The notes beneath the pieces were generated by a model. It made no database searches. It was not told the origin of the DNA and worked only from the letters and a program-made list of their open reading frames with translations. The position numbers and the translations under genes were made by a program. 59,185 bases of DNA from positions 1-59,185 of the forward strand of contig SZXX01000042.1 of NCBI GenBank assembly GCA_005843825.1, in the 5' to 3' direction. Of this stretch, positions 33,759 through 59,178 are shown one piece after another (within the stretch, counting starts at the first letter, position 1; each line of letters starts with the position of its first letter). Origin of the DNA: Chlorobium sp. GTDB taxonomy: Bacteria; Bacteroidota; Chlorobiia; Chlorobiales; Chlorobiaceae.

Positions 33759-35519
33759 TCATTTTGACCGCCTTTTGGCTTTTACAGGGGTATGATGTTC
33801 ATCAACGTTACGTACTTTCCCCATTGCAGTTCGATCTGCGCTTACTTGCGCTCGACGGGTTTTTTCCTGTGCAATCATTTTGAGATTGCTTGCTTCCTGA
33901 GCAGCGAATTCAGCTCGCATGGCAGCGATCCTGGAGTCTAAAACATTACGCTTATTTTCCAGATCAAACTGCCGGAGCTCAATTTCTTCCTGCAGTTTGA
34001 GACCTAATGCCTTTTCCTGAGCCAGCATATTCAAGCGTGCTCCACCTGTTGCGACCCCACCAGCGCCAATATAGACATCGCATATTTCCACGCCGTGATC
34101 TGAAATCAAAAATTCCCGAACCTGGTTGGAGTGGTTCATGCCCCGTGACTTGAGAATATAGATACCACGATTTCGCTCCCCATCACTCTCAGGATCCCTT
34201 AATGAAATCCATGAATCAATGAGTGATGAAATATTAACTGCGGCAACGTCTGTCGGCAATCCACTCGGCGTCAAGCTGCCAAACATAGCGGTAATGCCAA
34301 GAGATTTCATATTGTCAACAAACTTCATTAACATTCTTTTTACGTCTCTGGGATTTGCAATATTTCCAAAGCTTGTGACAGGATCCATGATGACAATTTT
34401 GGGAGCATGCTCCTCAATCACCTCTTGAGCCAAAAAGAGATGCATATCCAACCCACATTGATTAGGCCACTTAGATTCCATGACCAGAAGACCTTTTTTT
34501 ACCCACTGGTCGAGACTTAACCCAACTGAGTTCATATTTCTTATGATTTGAGCTGGCGACTCCTCGAAGGAAAAATAGACAACGCGCTCATTACGCCGAC
34601 AGGCTGCATCCGCAAAATATGACATGAAGGTGGTCTTACCCGTACCGGACGGGCCGGAAATCAAAATTACACTACCCTGGAAAAAGCCTGCGCCCCCAAG
34701 CATAGTGTCTAACCTTTGAATTCCGCTGGAAATTCTCGTAGTTGAGACTTTGTGCTCAAGTCTTGAAGATGTAATAGGTACGAGAGAAATGCCCTTTTCG
34801 TCAATTACGAAAGGGTACTCATTGGTGCCGTGAGATGAGCCACGATACTTCACGATACGTAATCTTCGTGAGGCAACCAGACCCTCAATGCTGATAGTTA
34901 AATTAATCACACAGTCAGAAACGAACTCTTCTATACCCTTACGAGAAAGGGTATCTTTGCCAGCTTCTCCAGTAATTACCGCAGTAACACCCTTCTCCTT
35001 GAGCCAACGAAACAGACGGTGTAATTCAGCACGCAAAACAGCTGGATTGGGCAGGTTGCTAAAGAGTGATTCAATCGTATCAAGAACTACGCGTTTGGCG
35101 CCAATGGCATCAATGGCGGCACCCAATCGAATAAACAGGGCATCCAGGTTGTACTTCCCTGCTTCAACTATTTCATCCCGATCGATATAAACAAAATCAA
35201 CAACCACCTTTTTGCTTGTAATCAACCCTTCCAGGTCAAAGCCGATCGAGGCTACATTGGCGATTAAATCGTTAGTCGATTCTTCAAACGCCATAAATAC
35301 GCCTGGCTCATTAAATTGCCTGGCACCTCTGAGCAAAAACTCCATAGCCATCAACGTTTTTCCGGTACCTGTTCCTCCGCAAATGAGTGAGGCTCGAGCC
35401 TTCGGCAGACCGCCATCGGTAATTAAATCTACTCCCTCAATCCCCGTTAACACCTTAGGAAGTTGCCGCCTGTTTTCCGGCATCAACTTTTTCTTTAGAT
35501 TAACTTTAGCTATTGACAT
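33759..35519 (-). CDS. kaiC: KaiC-like double ATPase with C-terminal coiled coil
   Basis: A 586-residue protein with two RecA-like domains. CI: Walker A GGTGTGKT (48-55), catalytic Glu79-Glu80. CII: Walker A GPSGTGKT (289-296), Glu319-Glu320. The phosphorylation site pair of cyanobacterial KaiC (Ser-Thr at 431-432) is Ser431-Ser432 here, within NISSLIDSW; serine pairs occur in KaiC homologues of non-cyanobacterial type. From residue about 495 the protein departs from the KaiA-binding tail and has a long charged coiled coil instead, ending in a basic tail KAKRRSK. No kaiA is in the window. In vitro KaiC of this kind can show timed phosphorylation with KaiB, but activity here is inferred only. 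Confidence 0.95.
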   Translation of the reverse strand: MSIAKVNLKKKLMPENRRQLPKVLTGIEGVDLITDGGLPKARASLICGGTGTGKTLMAMEFLLRGARQFNEPGVFMAFEESTNDLIANVASIGFDLEGLITSKKVVVDFVYIDRDEIVEAGKYNLDALFIRLGAAIDAIGAKRVVLDTIESLFSNLPNPAVLRAELHRLFRWLKEKGVTAVITGEAGKDTLSRKGIEEFVSDCVINLTISIEGLVASRRLRIVKYRGSSHGTNEYPFVIDEKGISLVPITSSRLEHKVSTTRISSGIQRLDTMLGGAGFFQGSVILISGPSGTGKTTFMSYFADAACRRNERVVYFSFEESPAQIIRNMNSVGLSLDQWVKKGLLVMESKWPNQCGLDMHLFLAQEVIEEHAPKIVIMDPVTSFGNIANPRDVKRMLMKFVDNMKSLGITAMFGSLTPSGLPTDVAAVNISSLIDSWISLRDPESDGERNRGIYILKSRGMNHSNQVREFLISDHGVEICDVYIGAGGVATGGARLNMLAQEKALGLKLQEEIELRQFDLENKRNVLDSRIAAMRAEFAAQEASNLKMIAQEKTRRAQVSADRTAMGKVRNVDEHHTPVKAKRRSK

Positions 35520-35948
35520 GATGCATTCACTTTCATGATTTCAATTGACCAAGATGCGATGTAGAGGCAACACATGTCATTAATACCATCGCGACTGAGG
35601 ATAGGGAAAGCTCATTATAATGAATTTAATTATTGCGGGCCGCCTAACGCATATAAATTATATCTATATTCAAAATATTCAAAATTTTTACACGGCCAGC
35701 ATGTTTGCTTCGTCTGTTTTATCGATGCCGTACCTGACAACAAAATAAGTATTCTATCCTTAAAGCCGCAACCTACCTCTCTATCCCCCTTCTTTCCGTA
35801 GTAGAACGACTGCGATTTTTAATATCCATTATAAGTATATACAGTAATAGCAATCTAATTCGCTCAATTCACCATATACTTTTATTCGCTATGGCTAACG
35901 TGGAACATGAGGGGATTATCAGGCAGGGCATGAATGTATGGAACAAGC
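35520..35948. other. kaiC upstream region with AT-rich near-palindrome
   Basis: A 429-bp gap that must hold the kai promoter (minus strand). No gene is seen. An AT-rich segment at 35647-35672 (ACGCATATAAATTATATC) resembles a segment at 42407-42429 beginning TACGCATATA and, inverted, one at 54380-54410, all in non-coding DNA near regulatory genes. Confidence 0.5.
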
Positions 35949-38900
35949 CTATGGATGAAAGACCGTAACGCAACTCCTCCCATGACTCTTCGAAAAGTAC
36001 ATGGCATCATCAGCATTTTTGATCAGCGTCAGTTCATTCTCGCCATGATCTGGAAAAACAGCGATACCGATACTGCATGAAATATTGATGGCATGGCCCT
36101 CAATCTCAAAAGGTTCTTGCAGGGCGTTCAGGATTTTCTCTGCAACTGCAACAGCATTTGCTATTGCAGCAATCTGCGGCAGCAGCACAACAAACTCATC
36201 GCCACCAAAACGAGCCAAAGTGTCGCTGCTTCTCTGCAGTATTCCGAGAGTACGGTTTGCAACCTGCTGAAGCAGCAGATCACCAATTCCATGGCCGAGT
36301 GTATCGTTAACCGGTTTGAATTTATCCAGATCAAATATCATCAACGCCGCCATTGTTCTACTCCGTTGACACAGGGCAATGGTCAATTTTATCTGCTCTG
36401 AAAGAAGTCGACGGTTTGGAAGACCCGTCAAAGAGTCGTGCATTGCCAGGTTTTCAATGGCATATTTCTGGGCTTGAAGTATTTTCCGTTCCTCCTCTCC
36501 CATCTTTTTAGCTACAATATCCCAGGCAATATCGGCAACAATACTCACCCATTTTATATCACGTTCATCATAATGAGCCAGCTTGTTGCCGACACCCAGA
36601 ATCGCCACAACCTTATCTCCCCGCAAAACCGGAACAACCACTTCACGCTTCACCTCAGCATGACCCTCCGGCATTCCTTTGCGATCCTTGACGGCAACAT
36701 AGTCATTATGTATCACCGCTTTTCGTTCCCGTGCCGCATCAGCCCATACTCCAGCGCTGTCAAGCGCATAGTGCTGGCCCTCTCCCTCAGCCTTGCACAT
36801 ATTTTTTTCAGTGTTGGTTGACCACGCATGAAGTGATAGTGTTATCTGATCTTCAGCTACGAAATGGAAGAAGCCGATAGAGCTTTCGGTCAGCTGTTCG
36901 GCTTTATCGAGTGACAACTGCAGCAGCTCCGTTATCGAATGGTTCTCCGCCATCTCAAGAAGAGCGAGATGCAGCTCAGTGGCAATTTCGTAGTCCTTTC
37001 GTTCAGTGACATCATGAACAATGGTATAGACAAACGATCTGCCATCCGTCACAATCGTCCGGCTATATACCTCTACATCACGGATGCTTCCGTTCGCCCT
37101 GCTATGACGGAACAGAAAATGGTTTTTCTCGCCTGTTTTGGTTTGTTCAATGGCACGCTCTACCTCCTCAGGAGTCAACGTATTGATATCATGAATACGC
37201 AACTTACGGATTTCATCGATCGTCCATCCATAAAACTCAATTGCAGCCTTATTGGCCTCCATAATAAAGCCTGTATCAGGATTGAACGTGAGCATAATGG
37301 CTGAATGCTCTTCAAACATTTCCTTAAAGCGCTTTTCGCTCTGTATCAGCGATGCTTCTGTTTGCTTATGCAGCTCTGCCAAATGCAGAGTATCTAATGC
37401 AAACGACACATCCTCGCCGATTTCTTTAAGAAGATTGATCTCTTCCTGATTAAACAAATTCACTTCTGTTGCATAGACATTAAGCAATGCAACGATTACT
37501 CCGCACTGCCGAACAGGCACTGAAATGGCTGAGTGAAAACCGCCGGCGACTGCCATATTCCGCCAGTGCTGCATGGCAGGATCAGTCTGGATGTTATTGC
37601 ATGAAATAACGTCTCCTGTTGCCACAGCCTTACTGAGGATTCCATTGCTGAAGGGCGCGTCATTTATGCTGAACGTATTAAAGGGCAGAATATTCTCTAT
37701 TTTACTGTATACAACTGTCGGTGTAATAACACCGGATTCAAGGTCAAGCATCCCGATCCAGGCCAACCCGAATTTGCCGGACTCCACTGCAACCCGGCAA
37801 ATAGCCGGGAACAATTGCTCTTTATCTTTGACACGCACAAGAGTTTCATTAATCTGCGAAAGCGTTGCGTAAATCCTGTTCAGGTTGGCATTTCTTGACT
37901 CGTTTTCTTTCCGGACGGTAATATCACGGGTGACTTTAGCAAAGCCTGTCAATTGATGATTTGCATCATAGGTGGAGGTAATGACAACATCCGCAAAGAA
38001 TCGCTTTCCATCCTTGCGTACCCGTAAACCCTCATCTTCCACTTTTCCCTGCTCAACAGCAGTTCTCAGTAAAAGAGATGGCTTGCCTGCAGCAATATCC
38101 TCTTCAGTAAAAAACCGCGAAAAGTTTTCCCCGATAATCTCTTCAGCCTTGTAGCCCTTCAAAAATTCAGCACCTTTGTTCCAGCTCAAGACCTCACCGT
38201 TCCGGTCGAGCATATAGATGGCATAGTCCTTAACGCTTTCCACCATCAGGCGAAACGTCTCTTCGCTTTTGCGCAGCTCTTCGATGCGCTTCTCAATACG
38301 AGAATTCAGCTCGCTATTGAGTTGAAGGAGCTCTTCCTCGGCACGCTTCCGTTTACCGACTTCCCTGTTGACGACAATAAAAGAAAACACCAGCAGTGAA
38401 ATACCCGAGCCAACCCCTGTTATCAAGGCAAAAACTGTATCCTGCAGGTTTATGGCTGCATCGTTGGAGCGTTGCTTGAGAAGCACACTTTCGATGTTGT
38501 GCATCTCAAGCAGTTCATGACGGACTTCAACCATCTCCTGCCTGCCGATATCGGTTGCAATCAACTCCTTCGCAGCTTCAAACCCGCTACCCCTTCTTTT
38601 CTCAACGACTTTGTTCATAAAGTCAAGCTTATTGCTGACAAGAGGATCAAGCTTGTCTAACAGTTGTTGTTGACGCGGGCTGTCAAATGTCAATCGACGC
38701 AGCTCCTGCAAGTGCGGGATAATGCCGTCTGTTGATGATATGGCGGTGAAATAGGGTTCAAGAAAAACCTCCTGGCCCATAATGACGTAACCGCGCGGAC
38801 CGGTTTCGGCGTCAGTCACCAGAGAAAGCGTTTCATCAAGTTTGTGCTCAACCTGAAGCGAGCGCTCTACCTGCCGTGTTCTTTCATTGAAAGCCTGAAG

Positions 38901-38999
38901 ACGAAGACCCATATAGACGCTGGAGCCGAGAATCATTACAAAAGCCAAAGCAAATGCATTTTTTGGAACGCGGCTTGTCGTGGTTTTATTCATAAACAA
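35949..38999 (-). CDS. CHASE3-PAS-GAF-PAS-GAF-GGDEF diguanylate cyclase
   Basis: A 1016-residue membrane receptor. Order: helix (about 14-32), CHASE3 (about 35-185, with ETGPRGYVIMG), helix (about 188-210), coiled coil, PAS (about 245-360), GAF (about 380-545), PAS (about 560-675), GAF (about 690-840) and GGDEF (about 855-1012). GGDEF active-site motif and the inhibitory RxxD (RSSD) five residues before it are intact, so it should make cyclic di-GMP under product feedback. The C-terminal domain is very close to that of the degenerate paralogue at 30715-32082. It is in the same direction as the kai operon, 429 bp upstream. Confidence 0.92.
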   Translation of the reverse strand: MFMNKTTTSRVPKNAFALAFVMILGSSVYMGLRLQAFNERTRQVERSLQVEHKLDETLSLVTDAETGPRGYVIMGQEVFLEPYFTAISSTDGIIPHLQELRRLTFDSPRQQQLLDKLDPLVSNKLDFMNKVVEKRRGSGFEAAKELIATDIGRQEMVEVRHELLEMHNIESVLLKQRSNDAAINLQDTVFALITGVGSGISLLVFSFIVVNREVGKRKRAEEELLQLNSELNSRIEKRIEELRKSEETFRLMVESVKDYAIYMLDRNGEVLSWNKGAEFLKGYKAEEIIGENFSRFFTEEDIAAGKPSLLLRTAVEQGKVEDEGLRVRKDGKRFFADVVITSTYDANHQLTGFAKVTRDITVRKENESRNANLNRIYATLSQINETLVRVKDKEQLFPAICRVAVESGKFGLAWIGMLDLESGVITPTVVYSKIENILPFNTFSINDAPFSNGILSKAVATGDVISCNNIQTDPAMQHWRNMAVAGGFHSAISVPVRQCGVIVALLNVYATEVNLFNQEEINLLKEIGEDVSFALDTLHLAELHKQTEASLIQSEKRFKEMFEEHSAIMLTFNPDTGFIMEANKAAIEFYGWTIDEIRKLRIHDINTLTPEEVERAIEQTKTGEKNHFLFRHSRANGSIRDVEVYSRTIVTDGRSFVYTIVHDVTERKDYEIATELHLALLEMAENHSITELLQLSLDKAEQLTESSIGFFHFVAEDQITLSLHAWSTNTEKNMCKAEGEGQHYALDSAGVWADAARERKAVIHNDYVAVKDRKGMPEGHAEVKREVVVPVLRGDKVVAILGVGNKLAHYDERDIKWVSIVADIAWDIVAKKMGEEERKILQAQKYAIENLAMHDSLTGLPNRRLLSEQIKLTIALCQRSRTMAALMIFDLDKFKPVNDTLGHGIGDLLLQQVANRTLGILQRSSDTLARFGGDEFVVLLPQIAAIANAVAVAEKILNALQEPFEIEGHAINISCSIGIAVFPDHGENELTLIKNADDAMYFSKSHGRSCVTVFHP

Positions 39000-39620
39000 T
39001 GTTGTTTACAACCTCCAGACAGAAACTCCTTTTTCGATTATGGCCTCTTCATCAAAATGAGTGTTAATCCTATGATCTAAAAAAAGTCTATGCGATTTAA
39101 CAGTTCATCTTCACCAAACACTTCAGCACGTTGTGCTGCAAGAATGGTGTCGTCACGTGCGGACTTATTTTCTAGCTGATCCTAGCGGGTGATGCAGGTG
39201 AGGGGCGACAATTGCCTCAAGGTGCACCATGCGGGGGAGTGAACAGAGCAGAATCAATATTCATGTCACGGTCGTACAGACTTACAGGCAGTAGTGAAAT
39301 GCAATGCTCATAGAGTTAATATATTAATTTTTCAGGATTTCAGGATTAATACCCATGTCTCCATACGATTAACGATACAATGATATTCATTACGCTGTCA
39401 TAACATTGTCTCGTTTTCAAATATTGCTGGTATGGCCTTTAATGGTTAATGGTTCTTTTATTTGCTGCATTCGATTGTGCAACTAAAGCTTATTTCGGAA
39501 ATGCATTACAATCTGGAAGATTATCGCTACATTTAATACGTATAAACCACAAATATTTTAGAGAATCTGTCACCAGCCAATTGATAATTAGCGTTCTCCT
39601 TAACAGCAAGTTGCCCCCCA
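39000..39620. other. 621-bp divergent intergenic region
   Basis: It separates two divergently transcribed sensor genes and must hold both promoters. No coding frame shows family similarity. Only a small hairpin CAGCACGTTGTGCTG (39123-39137) was noticed. The last 300 bp are AT-rich. Confidence 0.5.
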
Positions 39621-42359
39621 ATGGCAAAGAAACCGAAAAACATCAGCCTTGCCGATTCCAGTGACTTACGCTCTCTGGCTGAAGAGCGCCTGAAGAATAA
39701 ACACCTCGCCACTCAGTACTCCCGACTCAGCACTACGCCTTCACCTGAAGAAAGACTCAGGTTTGTCCATGAGCTCGAGGTACACCAAATAGAGCTTGAA
39801 ATGCAGCAGGAAGAGCTGGCTCGAACCAGGGTTGAGCTGCAGGATAATCTAACCCGGTACACTGAACTTTATGACTTTGCTCCAGTCGGGTATTTGACGT
39901 TGGGCCATGACAGTAAGATCCAGCAGGCAAACCTGACCGCCACCAAACTTCTTGGCATTGATCGCTCCCGTTTAGTTGGCATGCATTTCAAACATTTTGT
40001 ATTGCCAGAGGATTATCTCGCAATTGATTCCATGCTCGAAACAGTGTTCTCTAAAAGATTGCCGGGTAACTGCGAGGTGAAGCTTTTAGCACCCGCTTCC
40101 CAGCCAGCCAGGGGTCATAATGATCACTCTCTTCGCACTTTTCGCATTGAAGCAGCAGTAAGTGATACTGAATATGCATGCCGGGTTATTCTCTCTGATA
40201 TTACGGAGCAGAAACAGATAGAAGAGGAGCTCCTTGAAAGTAAAACAAGATTCAGCCAGGCACTTGAAGCCGCTTCTGCCGGTGTTTGGGAATGGCACTT
40301 GAAAACCAATGAGCTGTTCTGGTCAGACGAGTTATGGCAATTGTCCGGCTTGAAAAGGGGCGGTGAAAAACAAACGTTCAAACTATGGGAAGATTCCATT
40401 CATCCTGATGACCGGGAGTTGGTACTCCAATCCGTTACAGCTGCTGTGAAAAATGAAATAGAGTCACAAGTCGAGTATCGCGTCTGTTACCCCGACGGTT
40501 CTGTACACTGGCTCCTGTCACGAGGCAGGCCTTTACGCGATCACACTGGCAAGGTCGATCGTTATATCGGTACTGTTATCGACCTCACTGAACGAAAGCA
40601 GGCCGAGCAGGCATTGCTTGAAAGCGAAATAAAATTTCGTTCCATTACCGAACAAATATCAGAATTGGTTTTTGTTGCAGACTCCTCTGGAATTGTTAAC
40701 TATGTCTCCCCTGTTATCGAAAAATTGTCTGGCTATTTGCCTGATGAAGTAATTGGTCATTCCTTCATTGAATATTTAGCAGAAGATGAAATTTCCAAAG
40801 TTGTTGAACTGTTTGATGATGCCCTCGCACATCAATTGAAAAATCAGGTCGTCGAATTCAGGTACAGGAAAAAAAACGGCACCTTCCTGGATGCAGAAGT
40901 TCATTCGCAATATTACCATGCCTCCGGTTATTCCGGAGTAATCGGTGTAATCCTTGATGTTACTGACCGCAAGCTGGCTGAGAATCAGATAAAAAAACTG
41001 AGTACTATCGTAGAGCAAAGTCCTGCTATTGTGCTCATTACCGATCGTCTCGGTAAAATAGAGTATGTCAACCCCGCATTTACACAAATCACTGGTTATA
41101 CATTTGACGAGGTAAAAGGGAAAAATCCCCGCTTCCTTCAGTCAGGCCATACACCAAAAGCACTTTATGAAAAGCTTTGGCAGACAATACTCGCAGGTAA
41201 TATCTGGCGAGGTGAATTTCAAAACAGAAAGAAAAACGCTGACCTCTACTGGGAAAGAGCGGTAATCTCAGCTATTCTGAAAGAGGATGTGATAACCAAT
41301 TTTGTTGCGATCAAAGAGGATATAACCGAACACAAGAAGGAGGAACAACTTATTGTAGAAAGCAGGGGAAAACTGGAGGCTGCTCTTGCAAGTATGAGTG
41401 ATGCAGTCTTTATCTCTGATACAAAGGGAAACCTCATCCACTTTAATGACGCTTTTGCAACATTTCACAGGTTCAGGAATAAAGAGGAGTGTGCCAAGAC
41501 GTTTGATGAGTATCCTAAGTTTCTCGAAGCTTACCTGCTCTCGGGAGAACTTGTTCCCGTGGAACAATGGGCTCTACAGAGGGCTCTCGGAGGTGAAACC
41601 GCTACAGGAGTTGAACTTAGACTGCTCCGAAAGGATAGCGGTGAAACATGGTTTGGAAGCTATAATTATGCACCGATACGCAACACGGATGGACGTATCG
41701 TTGGCTCAGTAGTCACGGGTCGAGACATTACCAAAAAGAAAGCTGCGGAACAAGAGATAAACAGTTATGTAAAACAGTTGCAAGCAGCCATGCAAAGCAC
41801 GCTTCAAGCGGTAGCAAACGTCGTGGAAGCACATGATCCTTACACCGCAGGTCATGAACGGCGTGTTGGCATCATTTCGGCGGATATAGCAAGGGAAATG
41901 GGGTGGAGCGAAGAGAAGTGCCACTATCTGCAACTCATCGGATTGGTGCATGACATCGGCAAAATGAGCATTCCTGCCGAAATACTTTCCAAGCCAAGCC
42001 TATTGTCGGAAATCGAGTTTGAGCTCGTCAAGACTCATGCTGAACAAGGCTATCAAATCCTCAAGGATGTCGAGTTCCCTCTGCCGATTGCAGAAATCAT
42101 CCGGGAACACCACGAGCGTATGGACGGCAGCGGCTATCCGCAGGGCCTGAAAGGAGAGGAGACACTTATTGAAGCTCGCATACTTGCCGTAGCCGATGTA
42201 CTTGAATCCATGGCCTCACATCGCCCTTACCGGGCCTCATTAGGCATCGAAGAAGCCATTAATGAAATTGAGAGTTATCGGGGGAAGCATTTCGATCCGG
42301 AAGTAGTTGATGCCGTGCTGCGACTGTTTCGCAAAAAAGGCTATCAGCTCCCGGCTTGA
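39621..42359 (+). CDS. Multi-PAS HD-GYP phosphodiesterase candidate
   Basis: A 912-residue soluble protein. A short coiled coil (about 40-75) leads into five PAS domains (about 75-195, 205-325, 330-450, 455-575 and 585-710), several ending in the PAC-type sequence DLTERKQAE or DVTDRKLAE, then an HD-GYP domain (about 730-905). Key residues are intact: HDIGK, HHERMDGSGYPQG and DVLESMASHRPYR. The domain is close to that of the kai-linked protein at 32236. No membrane segment is seen, so it senses a cytoplasmic or diffusible signal; which PAS domains bind a cofactor is not decided. Confidence 0.93.
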   Translation: MAKKPKNISLADSSDLRSLAEERLKNKHLATQYSRLSTTPSPEERLRFVHELEVHQIELEMQQEELARTRVELQDNLTRYTELYDFAPVGYLTLGHDSKIQQANLTATKLLGIDRSRLVGMHFKHFVLPEDYLAIDSMLETVFSKRLPGNCEVKLLAPASQPARGHNDHSLRTFRIEAAVSDTEYACRVILSDITEQKQIEEELLESKTRFSQALEAASAGVWEWHLKTNELFWSDELWQLSGLKRGGEKQTFKLWEDSIHPDDRELVLQSVTAAVKNEIESQVEYRVCYPDGSVHWLLSRGRPLRDHTGKVDRYIGTVIDLTERKQAEQALLESEIKFRSITEQISELVFVADSSGIVNYVSPVIEKLSGYLPDEVIGHSFIEYLAEDEISKVVELFDDALAHQLKNQVVEFRYRKKNGTFLDAEVHSQYYHASGYSGVIGVILDVTDRKLAENQIKKLSTIVEQSPAIVLITDRLGKIEYVNPAFTQITGYTFDEVKGKNPRFLQSGHTPKALYEKLWQTILAGNIWRGEFQNRKKNADLYWERAVISAILKEDVITNFVAIKEDITEHKKEEQLIVESRGKLEAALASMSDAVFISDTKGNLIHFNDAFATFHRFRNKEECAKTFDEYPKFLEAYLLSGELVPVEQWALQRALGGETATGVELRLLRKDSGETWFGSYNYAPIRNTDGRIVGSVVTGRDITKKKAAEQEINSYVKQLQAAMQSTLQAVANVVEAHDPYTAGHERRVGIISADIAREMGWSEEKCHYLQLIGLVHDIGKMSIPAEILSKPSLLSEIEFELVKTHAEQGYQILKDVEFPLPIAEIIREHHERMDGSGYPQGLKGEETLIEARILAVADVLESMASHRPYRASLGIEEAINEIESYRGKHFDPEVVDAVLRLFRKKGYQLPA

Positions 42360-42860
42360 CAGATCACCGACAAAAGGCTGAGAAGACCGGAGTTAATAAG
42401 ACCCCATACGCATATAAAATATATACGTAATCTTCGAATATTCAGGCCCCCCTTCTTCCCCAATTGAAAGACAATTACTTGACAGCAATGAGTTGTCTCA
42501 CGCTACAATAAGGGGAATAAATGTCCTGATCATCAACCTTTTCATCAGCACCTGAATCGCAAAAGTGCTTAACATCCCTTTTGCCTCCCGAGTCACACCA
42601 AACAATAGCCATGACAGTGCAGAAGCAATTCTCATATAAAATTCTTTTATATACAGAAGAAAGATGTATATTATATGTATATGAAACTTTTATGATTGAT
42701 TATTGCATCGAAAATCTTTTCATGATCAGTGCAACCATGAAATAGAGCCCGATAGCGGCTACGATTTTATCGATTCTATGCGAAAGGGTTATGCTTACAG
42801 CCAGATGATTACTGCAAATTACCATACTGATCAGTGAATTAACAATTATGCGACTCCATC
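42360..42860. other. 501-bp intergenic region with AT-rich palindromes
   Basis: No gene is seen. Two AT-rich near-palindromes occur: 42407-42429 (23 bp, beginning TACGCATATA and ending TATACGTA) and 42664-42680 (ATGTATATTATATGTAT). The second resembles the palindrome upstream of the PAS kinase at 27637. The region should hold the promoter of the CHASE3 HD-GYP gene. Confidence 0.5.
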
Positions 42861-43289
42861 ATGAAACGCAACTTGTCCATTTTAAGTTTTCTCTCAGCCG
42901 TTCTGATAATAGTCAGCATTGGAATATTTACAGCCGTCAATCTGAGCTCCTATGTTGCAACCAACAAAATGGTCAACCATACACTGATCGTTAAGGAGAA
43001 ACTCAAAAACACACTTACTCTGCTTCTTGATGCCGAAACAGGTCAACGCGGTTATCTTATCACAGGGAATAAACTTTTTCTTCAACATTATAATGCAACT
43101 ACTGACACTGCCACCGGCATTAACAAGAATTTAAAAGCCCTTCGAAAACTTACGGCTGACAATCCCAATCAACAGCAACGCCTTGATCTTCTTGATGTAT
43201 TATGTACCGCTAAACTTGATAGGTTACAAAAAACTATAAACCTTAAAAACAATTCAGCGCTTGATCTTGCGAATACAGATACCATCTTT
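42861..43289 (+). pseudogene. 5' part of CHASE3-GAF-HD-GYP gene, split by insertion
   Basis: Encodes the first 143 residues of a membrane receptor: helix (about 8-30) and most of a periplasmic CHASE3 domain with DAETGQRGYLITG. The reading frame runs into the insertion element and stops after 17 foreign codons. Joining codon 143 to position 44996 gives an uninterrupted frame of 606 residues, so the gene was intact before insertion. It is the third CHASE3 receptor of the island. Confidence 0.9.
43256..43289 (+). repeat. Left copy of 34-bp target-site duplication
   Basis: Identical over 34 bp to 44962-44995. The two copies flank the insertion element exactly at its terminal inverted repeats. 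Perfect identity points to a recent insertion. Confidence 0.95.
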
Positions 43290-44961
43290 CCTGACTTCTG
43301 CCAAATTAGTGCGGAAGCTCATGGTTTAAGAATTTTAAGATAGAGTTGTTCGCTAATTTGCTGGTGTTCATACTCACGGTGTGTAATTCTCCTGTTCGCT
43401 CATCATAGATATTGGCCTCCTGAACTTGCCACAGTTCATCCCGAATCTGCCGTAACGAACGATCCGTTTTGATCTCAAGGTATTTGCCCATCATTAAGGC
43501 CATGAAGCAAACGAGCATATGGGCTCTGATGGCTTCCTGCGTGTAATGGAAGATAGGCCTGGCTTTCAAGTCTGACTTACTCATCCGAAACGCCTGCTCC
43601 ACATGCCAGAGATCTCGATAGTAGGCAACGACGTCAGCACTGGGCAACTCTATCTCCGGGATGTTGGTGACATAGCCCTTGATGCCCAGAAGCTTTTCTG
43701 CCTTTGCCTGGAGAGCAGTATCAAAGACGAAAGGCTTATTTTTCTCTTGAGACTTCTTGACAAACTTTGCTCGTCGCCCTGCTTCATTTCGCTCAAGTAG
43801 TTGAAAGGCACGCTTTACCTGCTTGTCAAACTCGCGTTTGTCTTTCTTGTAGCGGGCTTCGGAGAACTCACAGATGACCGAGGCGTTCTTGACACCGCTC
43901 GAATAGCTGAAGCGCCTTGGTGCCTGATTAGTGCGGGGTAGCTCTGTGTAAATTGTATCGATGAAGGCGCTTGCTGTGCTCGCCAATCGTGCTCCCACAA
44001 TGTAGCGGTATCCATCTGCCTCCAACTGCTGCATGTTGTCTTTCGAGAGCATTCCGGCGTCAGCCACAATAACCGGCTTGGTTTCTCCAACCCGTTCATG
44101 GAAGCGGTGCAAGACAGCCAACATTGTTTTCCCTTCGAAGGTATTGCCTTCAAACACTTCGTGCATTACTGGAAAACCAGATCGGGTGGTGATCAGGCCA
44201 ATAACGATTTGCGGCTGTTGCGGTTTGTTGTCTTTGGAGAAACCTGGTTTCTGAAAGTCGTACTCTTTGAAGGATTCGAAGTAGAGCGTGGTGACATCGT
44301 ACAATACAAGGCTGAAGCTCTCCTGCAGTGCATCGCGAGCCGTCTGGATGGCTGCAGTCTCGATCTCTTTCTGATACGCAAGGAGCTTTGGCAGCAACCG
44401 ATAAACGGTTCGTTCGGCATACCGCACATTGAAGTACCGCTGCAAAAGCTCGAGAGTGCGCAATTTGGAGGCGGGCTCAATGATGCGCATAAGGGCAAAA
44501 TCCAGATACAACTCAGGCAGGGCTCCCAATCCACACCTCTTGGCGGCAGAAAGCAGTGCGGTGCGGGCAAACTGATGAGTTACATCGACAAGCTCGGCAT
44601 GAGAGAAATCCAGATGCTGCTGTGGAGAACTTGCCGGGGGGTGTATTTCGGGTAAAAGGTATGGCTGTCTGCGATGAGCTTCAGCGTACTTCACCGCCTC
44701 AGCCATCAAAAGATCACACTCGCTCTCGCTATGAGCACTGCCTACATGCTTGATGATTGCACGCCTCTTTCCCTCATTGCGAACCACCTGAACGGCGGTT
44801 GCCCCTGAGGCTGTCTTAACCTTTCGGATTGTCAAGTCTCCACGCATGTTGTAAAGATACCATTAGTGCGGAAACTGATGAATCTGAAAATGCTAACTAA
44901 CTGAAAAATAATGACTTATTTTTCATACTCAAGGAATTGGTCAAAGTTGGCAGAAGTCAGG
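43290..44961. mobile_element. IS1634-like insertion sequence
   Basis: A complete element of 1672 bp with perfect 15-bp terminal inverted repeats, CCTGACTTCTGCCAA at the left and its complement at the right. It carries one transposase gene on the minus strand. A 34-bp direct duplication flanks it; IS1634 and IS1549 relatives are known for unusually long and variable duplications, which agrees. A 12-bp direct copy of ATTAGTGCGGAA also lies near both ends inside the element (43305 and 44862). Confidence 0.95.
43306..44847 (-). CDS. IS1634-family DDE transposase
   Basis: A 513-residue transposase of the IS4 superfamily, IS1634 group. The middle region has DVTTLYFESFKEYDF, then QPQIVIGLITTRSGFPVMHEVFEGNTFEGKT and IVADAGMLSKDN, which carry the first two catalytic acids (Asp in DVTTL and Asp in VADAGM). 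The later YRDLWHVEQAFRMSKSDLKARPIFH holds the YREK-like Glu region typical of IS4 enzymes. The frame is intact and reaches close to both element ends, so the element may be active. Confidence 0.94.
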   Translation of the reverse strand: MRGDLTIRKVKTASGATAVQVVRNEGKRRAIIKHVGSAHSESECDLLMAEAVKYAEAHRRQPYLLPEIHPPASSPQQHLDFSHAELVDVTHQFARTALLSAAKRCGLGALPELYLDFALMRIIEPASKLRTLELLQRYFNVRYAERTVYRLLPKLLAYQKEIETAAIQTARDALQESFSLVLYDVTTLYFESFKEYDFQKPGFSKDNKPQQPQIVIGLITTRSGFPVMHEVFEGNTFEGKTMLAVLHRFHERVGETKPVIVADAGMLSKDNMQQLEADGYRYIVGARLASTASAFIDTIYTELPRTNQAPRRFSYSSGVKNASVICEFSEARYKKDKREFDKQVKRAFQLLERNEAGRRAKFVKKSQEKNKPFVFDTALQAKAEKLLGIKGYVTNIPEIELPSADVVAYYRDLWHVEQAFRMSKSDLKARPIFHYTQEAIRAHMLVCFMALMMGKYLEIKTDRSLRQIRDELWQVQEANIYDERTGELHTVSMNTSKLANNSILKFLNHELPH

Positions 44962-44995
44962 AGCGCTTGATCTTGCGAATACAGATACCATCTTT
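44962..44995 (+). repeat. Right copy of 34-bp target-site duplication
   Basis: Identical to 43256-43289. It lets the original gene be reconstructed in frame by removing 43290-44995. Confidence 0.95.
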
Positions 44996-46387
44996 GTTCA
45001 AGGCAAGCAGATCATGGAACATATTCGTCAGGTTCTTGCATCATTTGAAAATGAAGAGAACACTTTACTTCAAGGGCGCCTTAATGAAGCAAACAACCGG
45101 TTACAAAACTTAGAGACGGTGACCGTGTCAGGGCTCGTGATGAGTATTTTATGTCTTCTGTTTTCATTTTCTCTCACAAAGCGGGAAGAGAAAAAGCGGC
45201 AGGCTGCCGAAAAGGATTTAATCCAGACCAACAGTGAACTGGATCTTCGAGTCAAGGAACTTGCCAGTTCAAAAGAACTGATAAAACAACAGCTTAATCG
45301 ACTTGATTCACTCCATGCGATAGACCTTGCTATTCTCAGTTCAACAGATTTACTGCTGGCACTCAATACCGTTTTAGCAGAGGTAACGAGCTGTCTGCAT
45401 GTCGATATTGCCGCCGTCTTTGTTTTCAATCCTGATAGTCTCATGCTCAAAATAGCCGCGCTCACCGGCAATATAATTCCAGGGACGAAACATATATCTA
45501 TGCGTCTTGGCGATGGAATATCTGGAAAAGCCGCACTGGAACGCGGAACTATTGCAGCTCCTGTACTGGCCAATATTGAGTTATCAGCGGCACTGAAGGA
45601 TAGTGCAAGCAAAGAAGGAATCCAATCGATCTATGTAACTCCGCTTATCGCGAAAGGGGTTCTTGTCGGAGTTCTCAGTACCGGTTTTCGTACACCATTC
45701 GACGCCGATGCGGATTGGGTTGACTTTTTTGAAGCGCTCGCTGCTCAGACCTCAATGGCTGTTGAAAGCATTCAATCGTTTACAAATGTCCAACGCTCTA
45801 ATCTTAATTTAAAACTGACGTATGACACCACAATCGAAGGGTGGTCGAAAGCACTGGATTTACGGGATGATGACACTGAAGGACACACGCTCAGGGTGAC
45901 AGAGATGACGATGAAAGTTGCAGAGTTGGCAGGAATGAACGATGCACAACTGGCACATGTACGGCGAGGCTCCCTGTTGCATGATATTGGAAAAATGGGT
46001 GTTCCTGACACGATTCTGCTCAAACCCGGAAAGCTCACCGATGAAGAGTGGGCTGCCATGCGTAAGCATCCAGGCTATGCACATGATCTGCTTTCGCCAA
46101 TTATCTATTTACGTCACGCCTTGGATATTCCATACTGTCACCATGAACGATGGGATGGCAGCGGCTATCCAAACGGACTGAAAGGTGATCAAATCCCATT
46201 GGCAGCACGCTTGTTTGCTGTTGTGGATGTCTGGGATGCCCTCCGCTCTGACCGTCCTTATCGCAAAGGCTGGCCGGAAGAAAAGGTCATTGAGCATATT
46301 AAAGCAGGCAGTGGCAGTCACTTTGACCCTGATGCTGTAGAATTATTTTTGAAGACACTTCAGAAAGACGAAAAAGATGCTGAGTGA
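44962..46387 (+). pseudogene. 3' part of CHASE3-GAF-HD-GYP gene
   Basis: Carries the remainder of the disrupted receptor: end of CHASE3, second membrane helix (about residues 40-58 of the piece starting at 45014), coiled coil, GAF domain (about 95-255) and HD-GYP domain (about 270-450). HD-GYP residues are intact: LLHDIGKMGVP, HHERWDGSGYPNG and DVWDALRSDRPYR. An ATG at 45014 could start a 457-residue product lacking the sensor, if a promoter exists in or near the insertion element. The first 34 bp are the right copy of the target duplication (44962-44995). Confidence 0.9.
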
Positions 46388-46392
46388 AATTG

Positions 46393-46539
46393 ATGTTAAA
46401 CATTCAATTGAGCAATGAAGTGAACCAAACTGATTTTAAAAAAGAAATGGTACGCAATCACATGGAAGACTGGAAAGAAAAAAGGGGAATCATGTCAGAT
46501 CTATTCTTTGAAGAGAGTCCTTATGGACAGCGATTATGA
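46393..46539 (+). CDS. Short ORF translationally coupled to the cyclase gene
   Basis: A 48-codon frame from ATG at 46393 to TGA at 46537-46539. Its stop overlaps the ATG of the downstream GGDEF gene (ATGA at 46536-46539), and its start is 5 bp after the HD-GYP stop, so the three frames are packed without gaps. The peptide is polar with an acidic-basic middle (MEDWKEKRGIMSDLFFEE) and no membrane segment. No family is recognised. It may be a real small protein or serve only to couple translation. Confidence 0.45.
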   Translation: MLNIQLSNEVNQTDFKKEMVRNHMEDWKEKRGIMSDLFFEESPYGQRL

Positions 46540-47819
46540 CAATACAGGTCATAAAAAAAATATCCCCCATACATACCATCGCCATTACCGGCCTGATAAG
46601 CCTGCTGATTGTTTTTTCCGGAACAGCATGGGTGCTTGTTCTGCATAACAAGACGCTTGAAGAGGCCGATCAAAAACAGACATATTATCTGGACCTTCTT
46701 GATTTCAGAGAACAAATAGTTGAATTCGATCTGAAACGTAACCAGACAAGCACGCTCAATGCTCCTTTTGAAAGAAGTGCTGAGACACAGAAAATAGCCG
46801 CCGCTAAACTGCTTTTCTTCTACCAGAAGCTCCTCGTTCAAATGCAGAACGCTGGACTGAAAGATCTTCCCACACTGCATCAAAAGAGTCAAAACAGCAT
46901 ACCTGTACTTTCCGGAGAAAACCTTGAGCTTTTCAGGCTTGTACTTGAACGCTCCATTGAAAAAGCAAGGATTGAATCAAAAAATGCTGTTAAACAACTG
47001 GTGTTCATAAACCAGTTGTTTCTTTTTTTTATTGTTGCACTTATCCTGACTCTGGGAATCTCAGGAGGGTGGCTGCTGTATAACAAGTACCGCCATACGC
47101 TTATACCTCTCAGGCAATTGGCAGGCAAACTGAAGCGGTTAAACAGTGAGATTCCGGAAAGCGTTATTGATACTACTGATGAAATGAAAAAGGAGCTTAC
47201 TGAATCAGATCACTCCAGCGATATTATTCAAGTCATAACGTCATTCATCAGTATTTGTGATCTGATCCAGATTAAAAACAAAAAACTTGATGAGATCCTT
47301 ATTCGTGACGAAAAGACCAATCTCTTTAACTACCGTCATCTTCAGGAACACCTCATTACCGAGATAGAACGAGCCAAGCGCTATAGCGAAACAGTCTCCC
47401 TGGTAATGCTTGATATCGATAATTTTGCACAATACAACGAGGTCAACGGCCATATTTCTGCTGATTATGTGCTCAAAAATCTTGCCGGTATCATCTCTGC
47501 TCAATGCCGGATTTCTGATATACCCGCAAGATTTGGAGGTGATGAATTCGCCATCCTTTTTCCCAAAACGGATTCAATGACAGTATGGGATATTGCTGAA
47601 CGTCTGCGCAAGATTGTCAATGACACACAATTCCGTACTGAGAGCGGTGTGCTGATCAGTAAGCTGACCATCAGTATCGGAACAGCTACCTTTCCACTTG
47701 ACGCACATGACTGGAATAGTCTTATTTCGCATGCTGATAAAGCAATGAACAGGGCTAAATCGGCCGGAAAAAACAAGGTGATCTCATTCTTAAAACATGA
47801 TGAAACTGTTACGAAATAA
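46536..47819 (+). CDS. Membrane diguanylate cyclase (GGDEF)
   Basis: A 427-residue protein with two membrane helices (about residues 13-36 and 157-181) around a periplasmic helical sensor region, then a HAMP-like linker and a GGDEF domain (about 255-420). The active-site motif GGDEF is at 334-338 and the inhibitory RxxD (RISD, 325-328) is exactly five residues before it. It should make cyclic di-GMP. Its end overlaps the start of the YaiO-like gene by 23 bp, so it is coupled to the polysaccharide genes and probably is their dedicated cyclase. Confidence 0.94.
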   Translation: MTIQVIKKISPIHTIAITGLISLLIVFSGTAWVLVLHNKTLEEADQKQTYYLDLLDFREQIVEFDLKRNQTSTLNAPFERSAETQKIAAAKLLFFYQKLLVQMQNAGLKDLPTLHQKSQNSIPVLSGENLELFRLVLERSIEKARIESKNAVKQLVFINQLFLFFIVALILTLGISGGWLLYNKYRHTLIPLRQLAGKLKRLNSEIPESVIDTTDEMKKELTESDHSSDIIQVITSFISICDLIQIKNKKLDEILIRDEKTNLFNYRHLQEHLITEIERAKRYSETVSLVMLDIDNFAQYNEVNGHISADYVLKNLAGIISAQCRISDIPARFGGDEFAILFPKTDSMTVWDIAERLRKIVNDTQFRTESGVLISKLTISIGTATFPLDAHDWNSLISHADKAMNRAKSAGKNKVISFLKHDETVTK

Positions 47820-56577: not shown

Positions 56578-58077
56578 ATGAAGCCATCGCTAAAAAACAC
56601 GACAGCCGATGATTCACTGATCCTGTACGCCGAACTCAATGATGCTGAGGTTAGAGCTGCACAAAGGCGATTGAAAATAGGGAGGTTAAAGCGTATTGTC
56701 CCTGGCGTTCTCAGCGCCAGCCCTGAAAAAGAGTGGCCGGCAATTATTGCGTTGCATAGAATGCGAGTCCTCGCCGCTCTTTTTACTGGTGCAGTTATTG
56801 GCTATAGAAGTGCCTTCAGAGGCGGCATGCCCGTCGACGGTGTAATACACCTCAGCTACAGCTACAACAGAATCGTCGAGTTACCGGGTTTAAAAGTGGT
56901 TTTGGTCAAGGGTACCGGAAAAACTGCTGGCGACCTTCCAATGTCAGGGCGAGACCTTTATTTTCCCTCTCAAGCCCGCATGCTGATGGAAAACCTAACC
57001 CCGAGTCGTGGAGCGATCAGAAAATCCGTTGGGCGAGTTGCCGTCGAAGAAAGGCTGGTCAGTATTTATGAATCAAGAGGTCCAGACACTCTCAACCGCA
57101 TCAGGGAAGAAGCTCGCGATATTGCTGCTCACCTAGGGTTTGAAAGGGAGTTTCAGGTTTTGAATGAACTCATCGGAAGCATTCTCGGAACAACAAGTGC
57201 GCAACTCGCTACGGCTGCAGGACAAGCATTGGCCGCAGGGATACCTTTTGACGCCGGGCGTATAGCCCTTTTTGAAAAGTTGGCCGCTGCATTGCGTGCA
57301 ATGCCTCTGACACAAAAAGCATCACCTGCCACAACCGAAAGAGCACGCATCAACTTTGCTTTCCTGGAGTCCTATTTCAGCAACTTCATCGAAGGAACGG
57401 AATTTGATGTTTCTGAAGCACGGCAAATTGTGCTTGAGGGAAAAATTATCGAACAACGCCCGAAAGACTCACACGACATCCTCGGTGTCTTCAGGCAAGC
57501 CATCAATCTCGGGTGGTCAATCCAATCGATTGCACCAGGTGAAGGCATATTGCACCAATTGCAGCAGCGCCATCTGGATCTCATGAAAGAACGACCGGAA
57601 TCAGCTCCTGGTGATTTTAAAGACAGGGAGAATTTTGCGGGGAACACCACGTTTGTCTCACCGAGAAATGTACGCGGAACTCTGATTGAGGGAAGCAAGC
57701 TCTTGCCGTCAGTTCATCCTGGAATGTCCAGGGCATTGCTGGCGATGTTTATAGTCTCGGAAGTACATCCCTTTATTGATGGAAACGGCCGATTAGCGCG
57801 TCTCGTCATGAACGCAGAGTTGTCGGTTGTCAATGCATGCAGAATGATTGTGCCAACACTCTTCAGAGAGGAATATCTGGATTCCCTGCGCGTGCTAACA
57901 CGGCAGGGAAAACTTGAACCGTTCATTTCCGCCATGCAGAAAATCCAGCAATGGACCGCCGCATTCGACTTCACCGATCTGGACCGGGTGATTGAGCAGA
58001 TGAAAGCCTGCAATGCATTCGAAAAATCCCGCAGGCAATACCAACTGCTTAACCTTTCCGACTTGACCGGTTCTTAA
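56578..58077 (+). CDS. Fic-domain protein with AbiEi-like N-terminal domain
   Basis: A 499-residue two-part protein. Residues 1-150 look like the winged-helix part of AbiEi-type transcriptional antitoxins (RLKIGRLKRIVPGVLSASP, then IGYRSAFRGG). The C-terminal part is a Fic AMP-transferase domain with catalytic motif HPFIDGNGRLAR (His397) and the inhibitory motif SNFIEG (268-273; Ser and Glu272) N-terminal to it, as in class II Fic proteins. The protein may be a self-inhibited toxin with built-in DNA-binding and autoregulation. The fusion is seen; its role is inferred. Confidence 0.85.
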   Translation: MKPSLKNTTADDSLILYAELNDAEVRAAQRRLKIGRLKRIVPGVLSASPEKEWPAIIALHRMRVLAALFTGAVIGYRSAFRGGMPVDGVIHLSYSYNRIVELPGLKVVLVKGTGKTAGDLPMSGRDLYFPSQARMLMENLTPSRGAIRKSVGRVAVEERLVSIYESRGPDTLNRIREEARDIAAHLGFEREFQVLNELIGSILGTTSAQLATAAGQALAAGIPFDAGRIALFEKLAAALRAMPLTQKASPATTERARINFAFLESYFSNFIEGTEFDVSEARQIVLEGKIIEQRPKDSHDILGVFRQAINLGWSIQSIAPGEGILHQLQQRHLDLMKERPESAPGDFKDRENFAGNTTFVSPRNVRGTLIEGSKLLPSVHPGMSRALLAMFIVSEVHPFIDGNGRLARLVMNAELSVVNACRMIVPTLFREEYLDSLRVLTRQGKLEPFISAMQKIQQWTAAFDFTDLDRVIEQMKACNAFEKSRRQYQLLNLSDLTGS

Positions 58078-58203
58078 TGCACATAGGCTCATGTGGCTCA
58101 TCATAGGCATGAACATGCTCAACTCGGAGTTCAATTCAGAGCTCAATACTGCGCCTGTAGTTTCCCCTGAAAAATTAACGGGACGCTCATGACTATCCAT
58201 ACT

Positions 58204-59178
58204 TCAACCCAAAGGATTTCGGCGAAAAATTTGATTCACGGCCGAAGCTGATATACCAAGCATTCGAGCAGTATCAGCAAACGATAACCCTAACTCCATC
58301 ACAAAATGACGAGAAAGTTCTTTACGTACATCAGTGCACTCACGGCGCTTACTCCCTGATTGCAATGCCTGCGATGTAATACCTGCCACTTCACACCTCT
58401 CTTCCAAAGCTTCCATGGCATTTACTTTGCTCGAGGTATCTGGGACAAGGGTTTTCACCGTTTCTTCAACTTCATCGAGTATTTCCTTTACAAACTCCCC
58501 GCTACCGAGTATCCGCTCATCGCTGAATTGCTTCTGACCTCGCTGACGCAACGATAACACTTCCGACCATCCGCCTGCGGAGCGCACCAAACCGCCTCCG
58601 GTCAGCTCAGACTGCTTTCCTAGACTGCTCTGCTCTAACACAAATTGAAGATATGCACTTCGCGCCGCTCTCTCTCTTTTGCCAAAATAAAGGAGTACAT
58701 ATTCCCGATCCTGCCAATCACGCTTGATCCTGTTTATCACAGTGGCATGACCGCTCCAAGGGTAGTTGGCCAGTTCATCCAATGAGCCGACAAGTCCGGC
58801 CCTCAGTGGATTGATATGGATATAACTGACCAGTTTCAGAAAATACGGTTCCTCTTCGCAGATAATTGACTTATATCGATTCTGAAACAAATGCCCGTGA
58901 CGATGGTGTCGGGAATTATACAAGATGGCATAGCTGGTCAAAAACTTTCGCATAAATATGGAGAGACCGGCCTCTCCGCTTTTCAACAACAGATGAGCAT
59001 GATTAGTCATCAGCGCCCATGCATAGATTTTTGTACCTGTTGCTGCGGCAGCAATACCCAAACGGGACACAAACAGATGACGATCATCATCATCCACAAC
59101 GATCCGATTCCCTTCGATTCCCCTAACCATCACATGATGCAGGGTTCCCGGTGAATCCAGTCTTGCTCCTCTCGGCAT
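58204..59178 (-). CDS. REP-associated tyrosine transposase (RAYT, IS200-like Y1)
   Basis: A 324-residue single-strand transposase-like protein. The HUH pair is His60 and His62 in MTNHAHLLL, the nucleophile Tyr is about 119 in LVSYIHINPLRAG, and HLFQNRYKSIICEEE precedes it. The C-terminal third ends in a DnaA-like helix-turn-helix (SFADTARMLGISASAVNQIFRRN), known in the larger RAYTs. RAYTs move or maintain REP-type palindromes and are usually domesticated single-copy genes. No clear REP element is visible in the 126 bp downstream. Confidence 0.93.
   Translation of the reverse strand: MPRGARLDSPGTLHHVMVRGIEGNRIVVDDDDRHLFVSRLGIAAAATGTKIYAWALMTNHAHLLLKSGEAGLSIFMRKFLTSYAILYNSRHHRHGHLFQNRYKSIICEEEPYFLKLVSYIHINPLRAGLVGSLDELANYPWSGHATVINRIKRDWQDREYVLLYFGKRERAARSAYLQFVLEQSSLGKQSELTGGGLVRSAGGWSEVLSLRQRGQKQFSDERILGSGEFVKEILDEVEETVKTLVPDTSSKVNAMEALEERCEVAGITSQALQSGSKRRECTDVRKELSRHFVMELGLSFADTARMLGISASAVNQIFRRNPLG

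Follow-up and report, generated by a model that had tools for sequence, protein, structure and literature searches.

An insertion sequence of the IS1634 family lies within a CHASE3-GAF-HD-GYP gene in the window, i.e., the whole 59,185-nucleotide stretch of Chlorobium DNA that was analysed (Table 1). The 5′ frame of the split gene reads into the element and meets a stop at 43343 (160 aa), while in the 3′ part an ATG at 45014 opens a frame of 457 aa (45014-46387) holding both the GAF and the HD-GYP domain. The sensor part of the gene is now separate from its catalytic half.

Table 1. Coordinates of the interrupted gene, the insertion sequence and the adjoining upstream gene in the window.
Feature	Position	Strand	Details
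PAS-HD-GYP gene, just upstream of the split gene	39621-42359
Split gene, 5′ part: signal anchor and CHASE3	42861-43289	+	CHASE3 E 3.9e-26
34-bp target duplication, left copy	43256-43289		exact repeat
Insertion sequence, IS1634 family	43290-44961	-	1,672 bp
Inverted end, 3′ side of transposase gene	43290-43304		15/15
Transposase, 513 aa	43306-44847	-	D184-D263-E417 intact; NF033559 match
Inverted end, 5′ side of transposase gene	44947-44961		15/15
34-bp target duplication, right copy	44962-44995		exact repeat
Split gene, 3′ part: GAF and HD-GYP	44996-46387	+	open frame

The insertion sequence and its target site

The ends of the element (CCTGACTTCTGCCAA) match each other in inverted orientation at 15 of 15 positions and are directly abutted by the two identical copies of the 34-bp repeat; an exact repeat of this length at both boundaries would arise by chance with a probability of about 4^-34, which is negligible. 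The earlier note had described an IS1634-like element with 15-bp perfect inverted ends and an identical 34-bp duplication at 43256-44995, a span that comprises the element plus both repeats, and this description is borne out by the sequence and by the NCBIfam IS1634 model NF033559, which matched the transposase with 360.6 bits (cut-off 100, E 1.6e-107). Members of the family are 1,500-2,000 bp long and have C-----YT ends, as does the window element (1,672 bp, CCTGACTT). They also share a DDE triad whose second spacer is long and a Y..E..K motif usually devoid of the R; in the window transposase the triad spacers are 78 (D184-D263) and 153 (D263-E417), and the motif consists of Y410, L413 replacing R, E417 and K424. 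Repeats of 5-6 bp are typical of the family, although not defining, whereas the repeat measures 34 bp here and 21-680 bp in the clade described below; long repeats differing from copy to copy, which characterize the IS1549/IS1634 subgroup, are found both here (34 bp) and among the clade insertions. A search of solved structures with the window transposase gave no match, and the phage records searched contained weak relatives only.

Deletion of the element together with one repeat (1,706 bp) restores a CHASE3-GAF-HD-GYP frame of 606 codons. As 1,706 is not divisible by three, the insertion shifts the frame as well, so that the statement that the gene was split in frame holds for the restored 606-codon gene and fails for the insertion itself. 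G060, a genome of the same genus and the only relative found to carry this region, has an uninterrupted 606-aa ortholog (about 87% DNA identity) in which the target region is single-copy, flanked by the same neighbours as in the window (PAS-HD-GYP before, GGDEF after). This intact ortholog in the same surroundings indicates that the insertion hit an ancestral intact gene, and together with the restored frame it supports the proposed insertion into an intact gene. An insertion shared by all relatives and flanked by decayed repeats was not seen, the one relative (G060) having an empty site. The term “recent”, which had also been proposed, is bounded weakly, by the split from G060 alone, since a stretch of 34 identical bases is too short for dating the event.

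Duplication lengths in the transposase clade

In its own genome (a 57-contig assembly) the window element is present as a single copy, no further one having been found, and copy-to-copy variation was therefore examined in relatives. These were drawn from samples at the family, phylum and class level, from one genome collection and from a plasmid collection, some being metagenome assemblies and others closed genomes and complete plasmids. Each element was anchored at its ends before the repeat was measured; the false ends that the automatic end-finder proposed for elements that were truncated or only distantly related (e.g., L003, L011 and L013) were left out.

Thirty-one insertions of this transposase clade were collected with a repeat of at least 21 bp, ranging from 21 to about 680 bp with a median of 131. 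They come from Chlorobiota, Bacteroidota, Actinomycetota and Campylobacterota, as well as from a Burkholderiaceae MAG. The shortest repeats measure 21 (G060), 32, 34 (window), 45, 49 and 53 bp, followed by 56 (Actinomyces oris), 72, 75, 75, 80 (Burkholderiaceae MAG), 88 and 93 bp; lengths of 108, 127, 131, 150, about 152 (Rhodococcus pyridinivorans), 152, 156 and 171 bp occupy the middle, and about 197, about 217 (diverged), 281, 325, 406 (Persicobacter plasmid), 407 and 513 bp the upper middle of the range. The longest are 608 bp (Mycobacterium riyadhense plasmid, one mismatch), 629 bp, where the repeat stops exactly at the contig end, and about 680 bp (Aliarcobacter plasmid, one mismatch). 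Exponential and log-normal distributions fit the 31 lengths about equally, and no helical phasing was found among them. The genome of the window also holds a second, different IS1634-family element (G000 contig 34, locus L086), whose duplication measures 72 bp. In the plasmid of R. pyridinivorans (NZ_CP113799.1, L137) one half of the duplication (roughly 152 bp) was later interrupted by an IS3-family element.

A maximum-likelihood tree of 50 transposases, rooted at the midpoint only, places all of the long-repeat rows (26/26) within one clade of 34 rows with a support of 100/99. Several residues of the window transposase, S204, K205, E238, R332 and G391 among them, are fixed throughout the long-repeat clade but not beyond it. 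The Geobacillus and Mesorhizobium rows (5 bp) lie outside this clade; in all, five of the seven short-repeat rows do so, and more distant members of the family have repeats of 4-6 bp or none. The other two short-repeat rows lie inside, both from Actinomycetota. Since L142 and L143, two actinomycetotal elements inside the clade, show repeats of 5-7 bp only, the long stagger is not obligatory. The confinement of the long rows to one clade identifies the long repeat as a trait of the clade, with possible loss, and not of single elements, and we hold both this and the IS1634-family identity to be nearly certain.

Four elements of the long-repeat clade (L136, L153, L154 and L155) have intact-looking ends and no target duplication in the flanks that were read (one flank of 556 bp in the case of L154), which may be due to deletion, to recombination or to a longer repeat. 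Among the transposase-bearing elements with both flanks read, duplications outnumber repeat-less insertions by 30 to 4 (p about 3e-6 against even odds). Two copies in the closed genome G166 (L151, contig 1, 2013391-2015054; L152, 2056513-2058176) were considered as repeat-less insertions and rejected as such, because their flanks are exchanged: 156 bp of the left flank of one copy recur in the right flank of its partner, the opposite pairing extends over 281 bp, and both repeats lie exactly at the element ends. The copies face in opposite directions at a distance of 41-43 kb, and a roughly 41-kb inversion by recombination between them fits the exchanged repeats. This genome carries the same related element in four copies, the remaining two with repeats of 131 and 325 bp, so that one element has yielded four different long duplications (131, 156, 281 and 325 bp).

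A Corynebacterium element that also seemed to lack a repeat proved to be part of a composite transposon and was likewise rejected as repeat-less. This 5,352-bp unit on a Corynebacterium faecale plasmid (NZ_CP047205.1, L191, 6319-11670) carries SMR-family transporter and TetR genes on a 2-kb segment that has an identical IS1634-family copy on either side, and the entire unit is bordered by a direct repeat of 513 bp, which indicates that the composite transposon moved as one. At the other extreme, a non-autonomous element of 347 bp in G060 (contig 45, L024, 1334-1680) has the same ends and a 21-bp repeat, showing that the interior of the element is unnecessary for a repeat above the family norm. 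Short matches of this kind, restricted to the ends, were also observed in G041, G069 and G077, and suggest a small family of short non-autonomous elements in this genus.

According to a review of the IS1634 family, direct repeats normally measure 5-6 bp, with IS1549 and IS1634, the prototype, named as two exceptions that have repeats of 8-514 bp and for which, it says, no mechanism had been put forward (PMC2266710); a fresh IS1549 insertion was reported with a 13-bp repeat (PMC10066036). The earlier note had mentioned these long variable duplications, and both the review and the clade studied here agree with it: the copies in relatives carry duplications that are long and variable, not short and fixed. 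Compared by their published descriptions, IS1549 (Mycobacterium smegmatis) and IS1634 (Mycoplasma mycoides) resemble the window element in transposase family and in their long variable repeats, although their hosts differ from its host and the longest repeats of the present survey, 608-680 bp, go beyond the published range of 8-514 bp. ISPfe2, ISGka5 and Acidiphilium IS1634-1 share with the window element the long spacer before the E and the C-----YT ends, but their published repeats are 6 bp, unlike its 34 bp. The clade-wide spread, the junction motif described below and the cases of 608-680 bp appear to be new in the literature searched; ISfinder may list other long-repeat members.

Long variable target duplication is thus a trait of a whole branch of the family instead of two odd elements. 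In practice, annotation software that screens for short repeats will overlook these insertions. Where an element is bordered by direct repeats of hundreds of bases, precise excision, gene duplication and rearrangement could become more likely.

Junction motif and possible mechanism

Sixty-one strand-transfer points were aligned, each read on its own strand from outside into the repeat. The first base of the repeat (+1) is A in 46 of the 61 points (p 3e-14), a purine is present at +2 in 54/61 (p 1e-10) and at +3 in 48/61 (p 2e-6), and C or G precedes the junction (-1) in 43/61 (p 2e-5), although in a few elements that have C before CTGA the boundary may be off by one base. The resulting weak motif, S|ARR, is alike at both element ends, while the spacing between the points is free; the motif could come in part from base composition. 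In the window the two junctions read C|AAA and C|AGC. The presence of the same motif at both points, with a free distance between them, suggests that each end picks its own site.

Chance or artefact as the source of the 34-bp repeat was rejected on the basis of its exact abutment, the empty site in G060 and the shared junction motif. More broadly, the repeats might not stem from transposition and might represent older tandem duplications, recombination products or assembly errors, as the draft is broken into 57 contigs, one of which is the window, and several of the relatives are known from metagenome assemblies; such an origin is very improbable, however, given that the repeats abut the ends exactly at 31 separate sites, complete plasmids and closed genomes included, that the target region is single-copy in the G060 ortholog, that the junctions share a motif and that the exchanged repeats of G166 fit an inversion. 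Taken as a whole, the best explanation (probability roughly 0.8) is that a DDE transposase of its own type moved an IS1634-family element into the CHASE3-GAF-HD-GYP gene.

DDE transposases are expected to cut their target with a fixed short stagger. For the clade studied here, the two 3′ ends would keep the usual polarity and attack a single target duplex on opposite strands, at sites chosen independently, each with a weak S|ARR preference and no fixed stagger, and captured, e.g., through a DNA loop. Host synthesis, probably by strand displacement, would then copy the stretch between the nicks, in which case the length of the duplication would equal the distance between the two sites. We consider the odds of this mechanism with two independent sites to be evenly balanced. 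An attack by both ends on a single duplex, in fixed polarity, would be expected to give such an excess of duplications over repeat-less elements as was seen (30 versus 4).

A more inclusive joint reading is put forward tentatively, at somewhat less than even odds: strand transfer may proceed without fixed stagger throughout the clade (at least four to five phyla), using independent S|ARR sites that lie on the two strands of a single duplex and are separated by as much as about 700 bp, and the duplication may be made by host strand-displacement synthesis, also in composite transposons and non-autonomous derivatives. The IS1634-type transposase of Acidiphilium has been reported to bind the beta clamp, i.e., the replication sliding clamp (PMC4549789), and this fits with recruited replication; since this clamp-binding element makes 6-bp repeats, the clamp alone cannot explain the length.

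Alternatively, the two ends could be joined to the two sister duplexes that trail a replication fork, with the offset of the joining points giving the duplication. This would account for lengths that vary freely from tens to hundreds of bp, and the binding of the sliding clamp by an IS1634-family transposase (PMC4549789) would be in keeping with it, but deletions would be predicted about as often as duplications, against the 30 duplications and 4 repeat-less cases observed, and the clamp-binding Acidiphilium element gives 6-bp repeats. Because it also predicts deletions, the sister-duplex model is less favoured and is judged improbable. The clade trait, the motif at both cut points and the short-repeat sister group together offer a testable comparison.

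Neighbourhood and possible effect on the host

The catalytic half of the split gene carries the canonical HD-GYP signature (HDIGK, HHE and GYP) and aligned to PDB 4mcw, a solved HD-GYP protein (E 5.8e-46). This protein, PmGH of Persephonella marina, has the HD and GYP motifs in common with the split gene, which differs from it in having CHASE3 and GAF input domains and in being interrupted by an insertion sequence. Downstream, on the same strand, follow genes for a GGDEF protein, a YaiO-type barrel, an NAD-epimerase, a HEAT-repeat protein and a family-2 glycosyltransferase, so that the earlier note was right in placing polysaccharide-type genes (NAD-epimerase, family-2 glycosyltransferase and YaiO-type barrel) downstream.

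It had also been proposed that loss of this phosphodiesterase could raise c-di-GMP and polysaccharide output. The splitting of an HD-GYP gene with a canonical signature, and the GGDEF, YaiO-type, epimerase and glycosyltransferase genes that follow it on the same strand, would be compatible with such an effect. It nevertheless seems unlikely, as the catalytic part is still open (457 aa), another HD-GYP gene adjoins the split gene, and an outward promoter scan for the downstream fragment gave 8 sites versus 7.2 expected in shuffled sequence, which is not above chance. Moreover, the insertion could be polar on the downstream GGDEF gene, and this would push c-di-GMP in the opposite direction; in Microcystis an IS1634-family insertion has been reported to lower expression downstream (PMC11448079).

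The split gene belongs to a signalling cluster (window 33759-47819) that includes a KaiC-type ATPase, a CHASE3-PAS-GAF-GGDEF protein, the PAS-HD-GYP protein, the split CHASE3-GAF-HD-GYP protein and another GGDEF protein. Farther along the window (56578-59178), a gene for a Fic/DOC-family protein adjoins an IS200-like (Y1) transposase gene.
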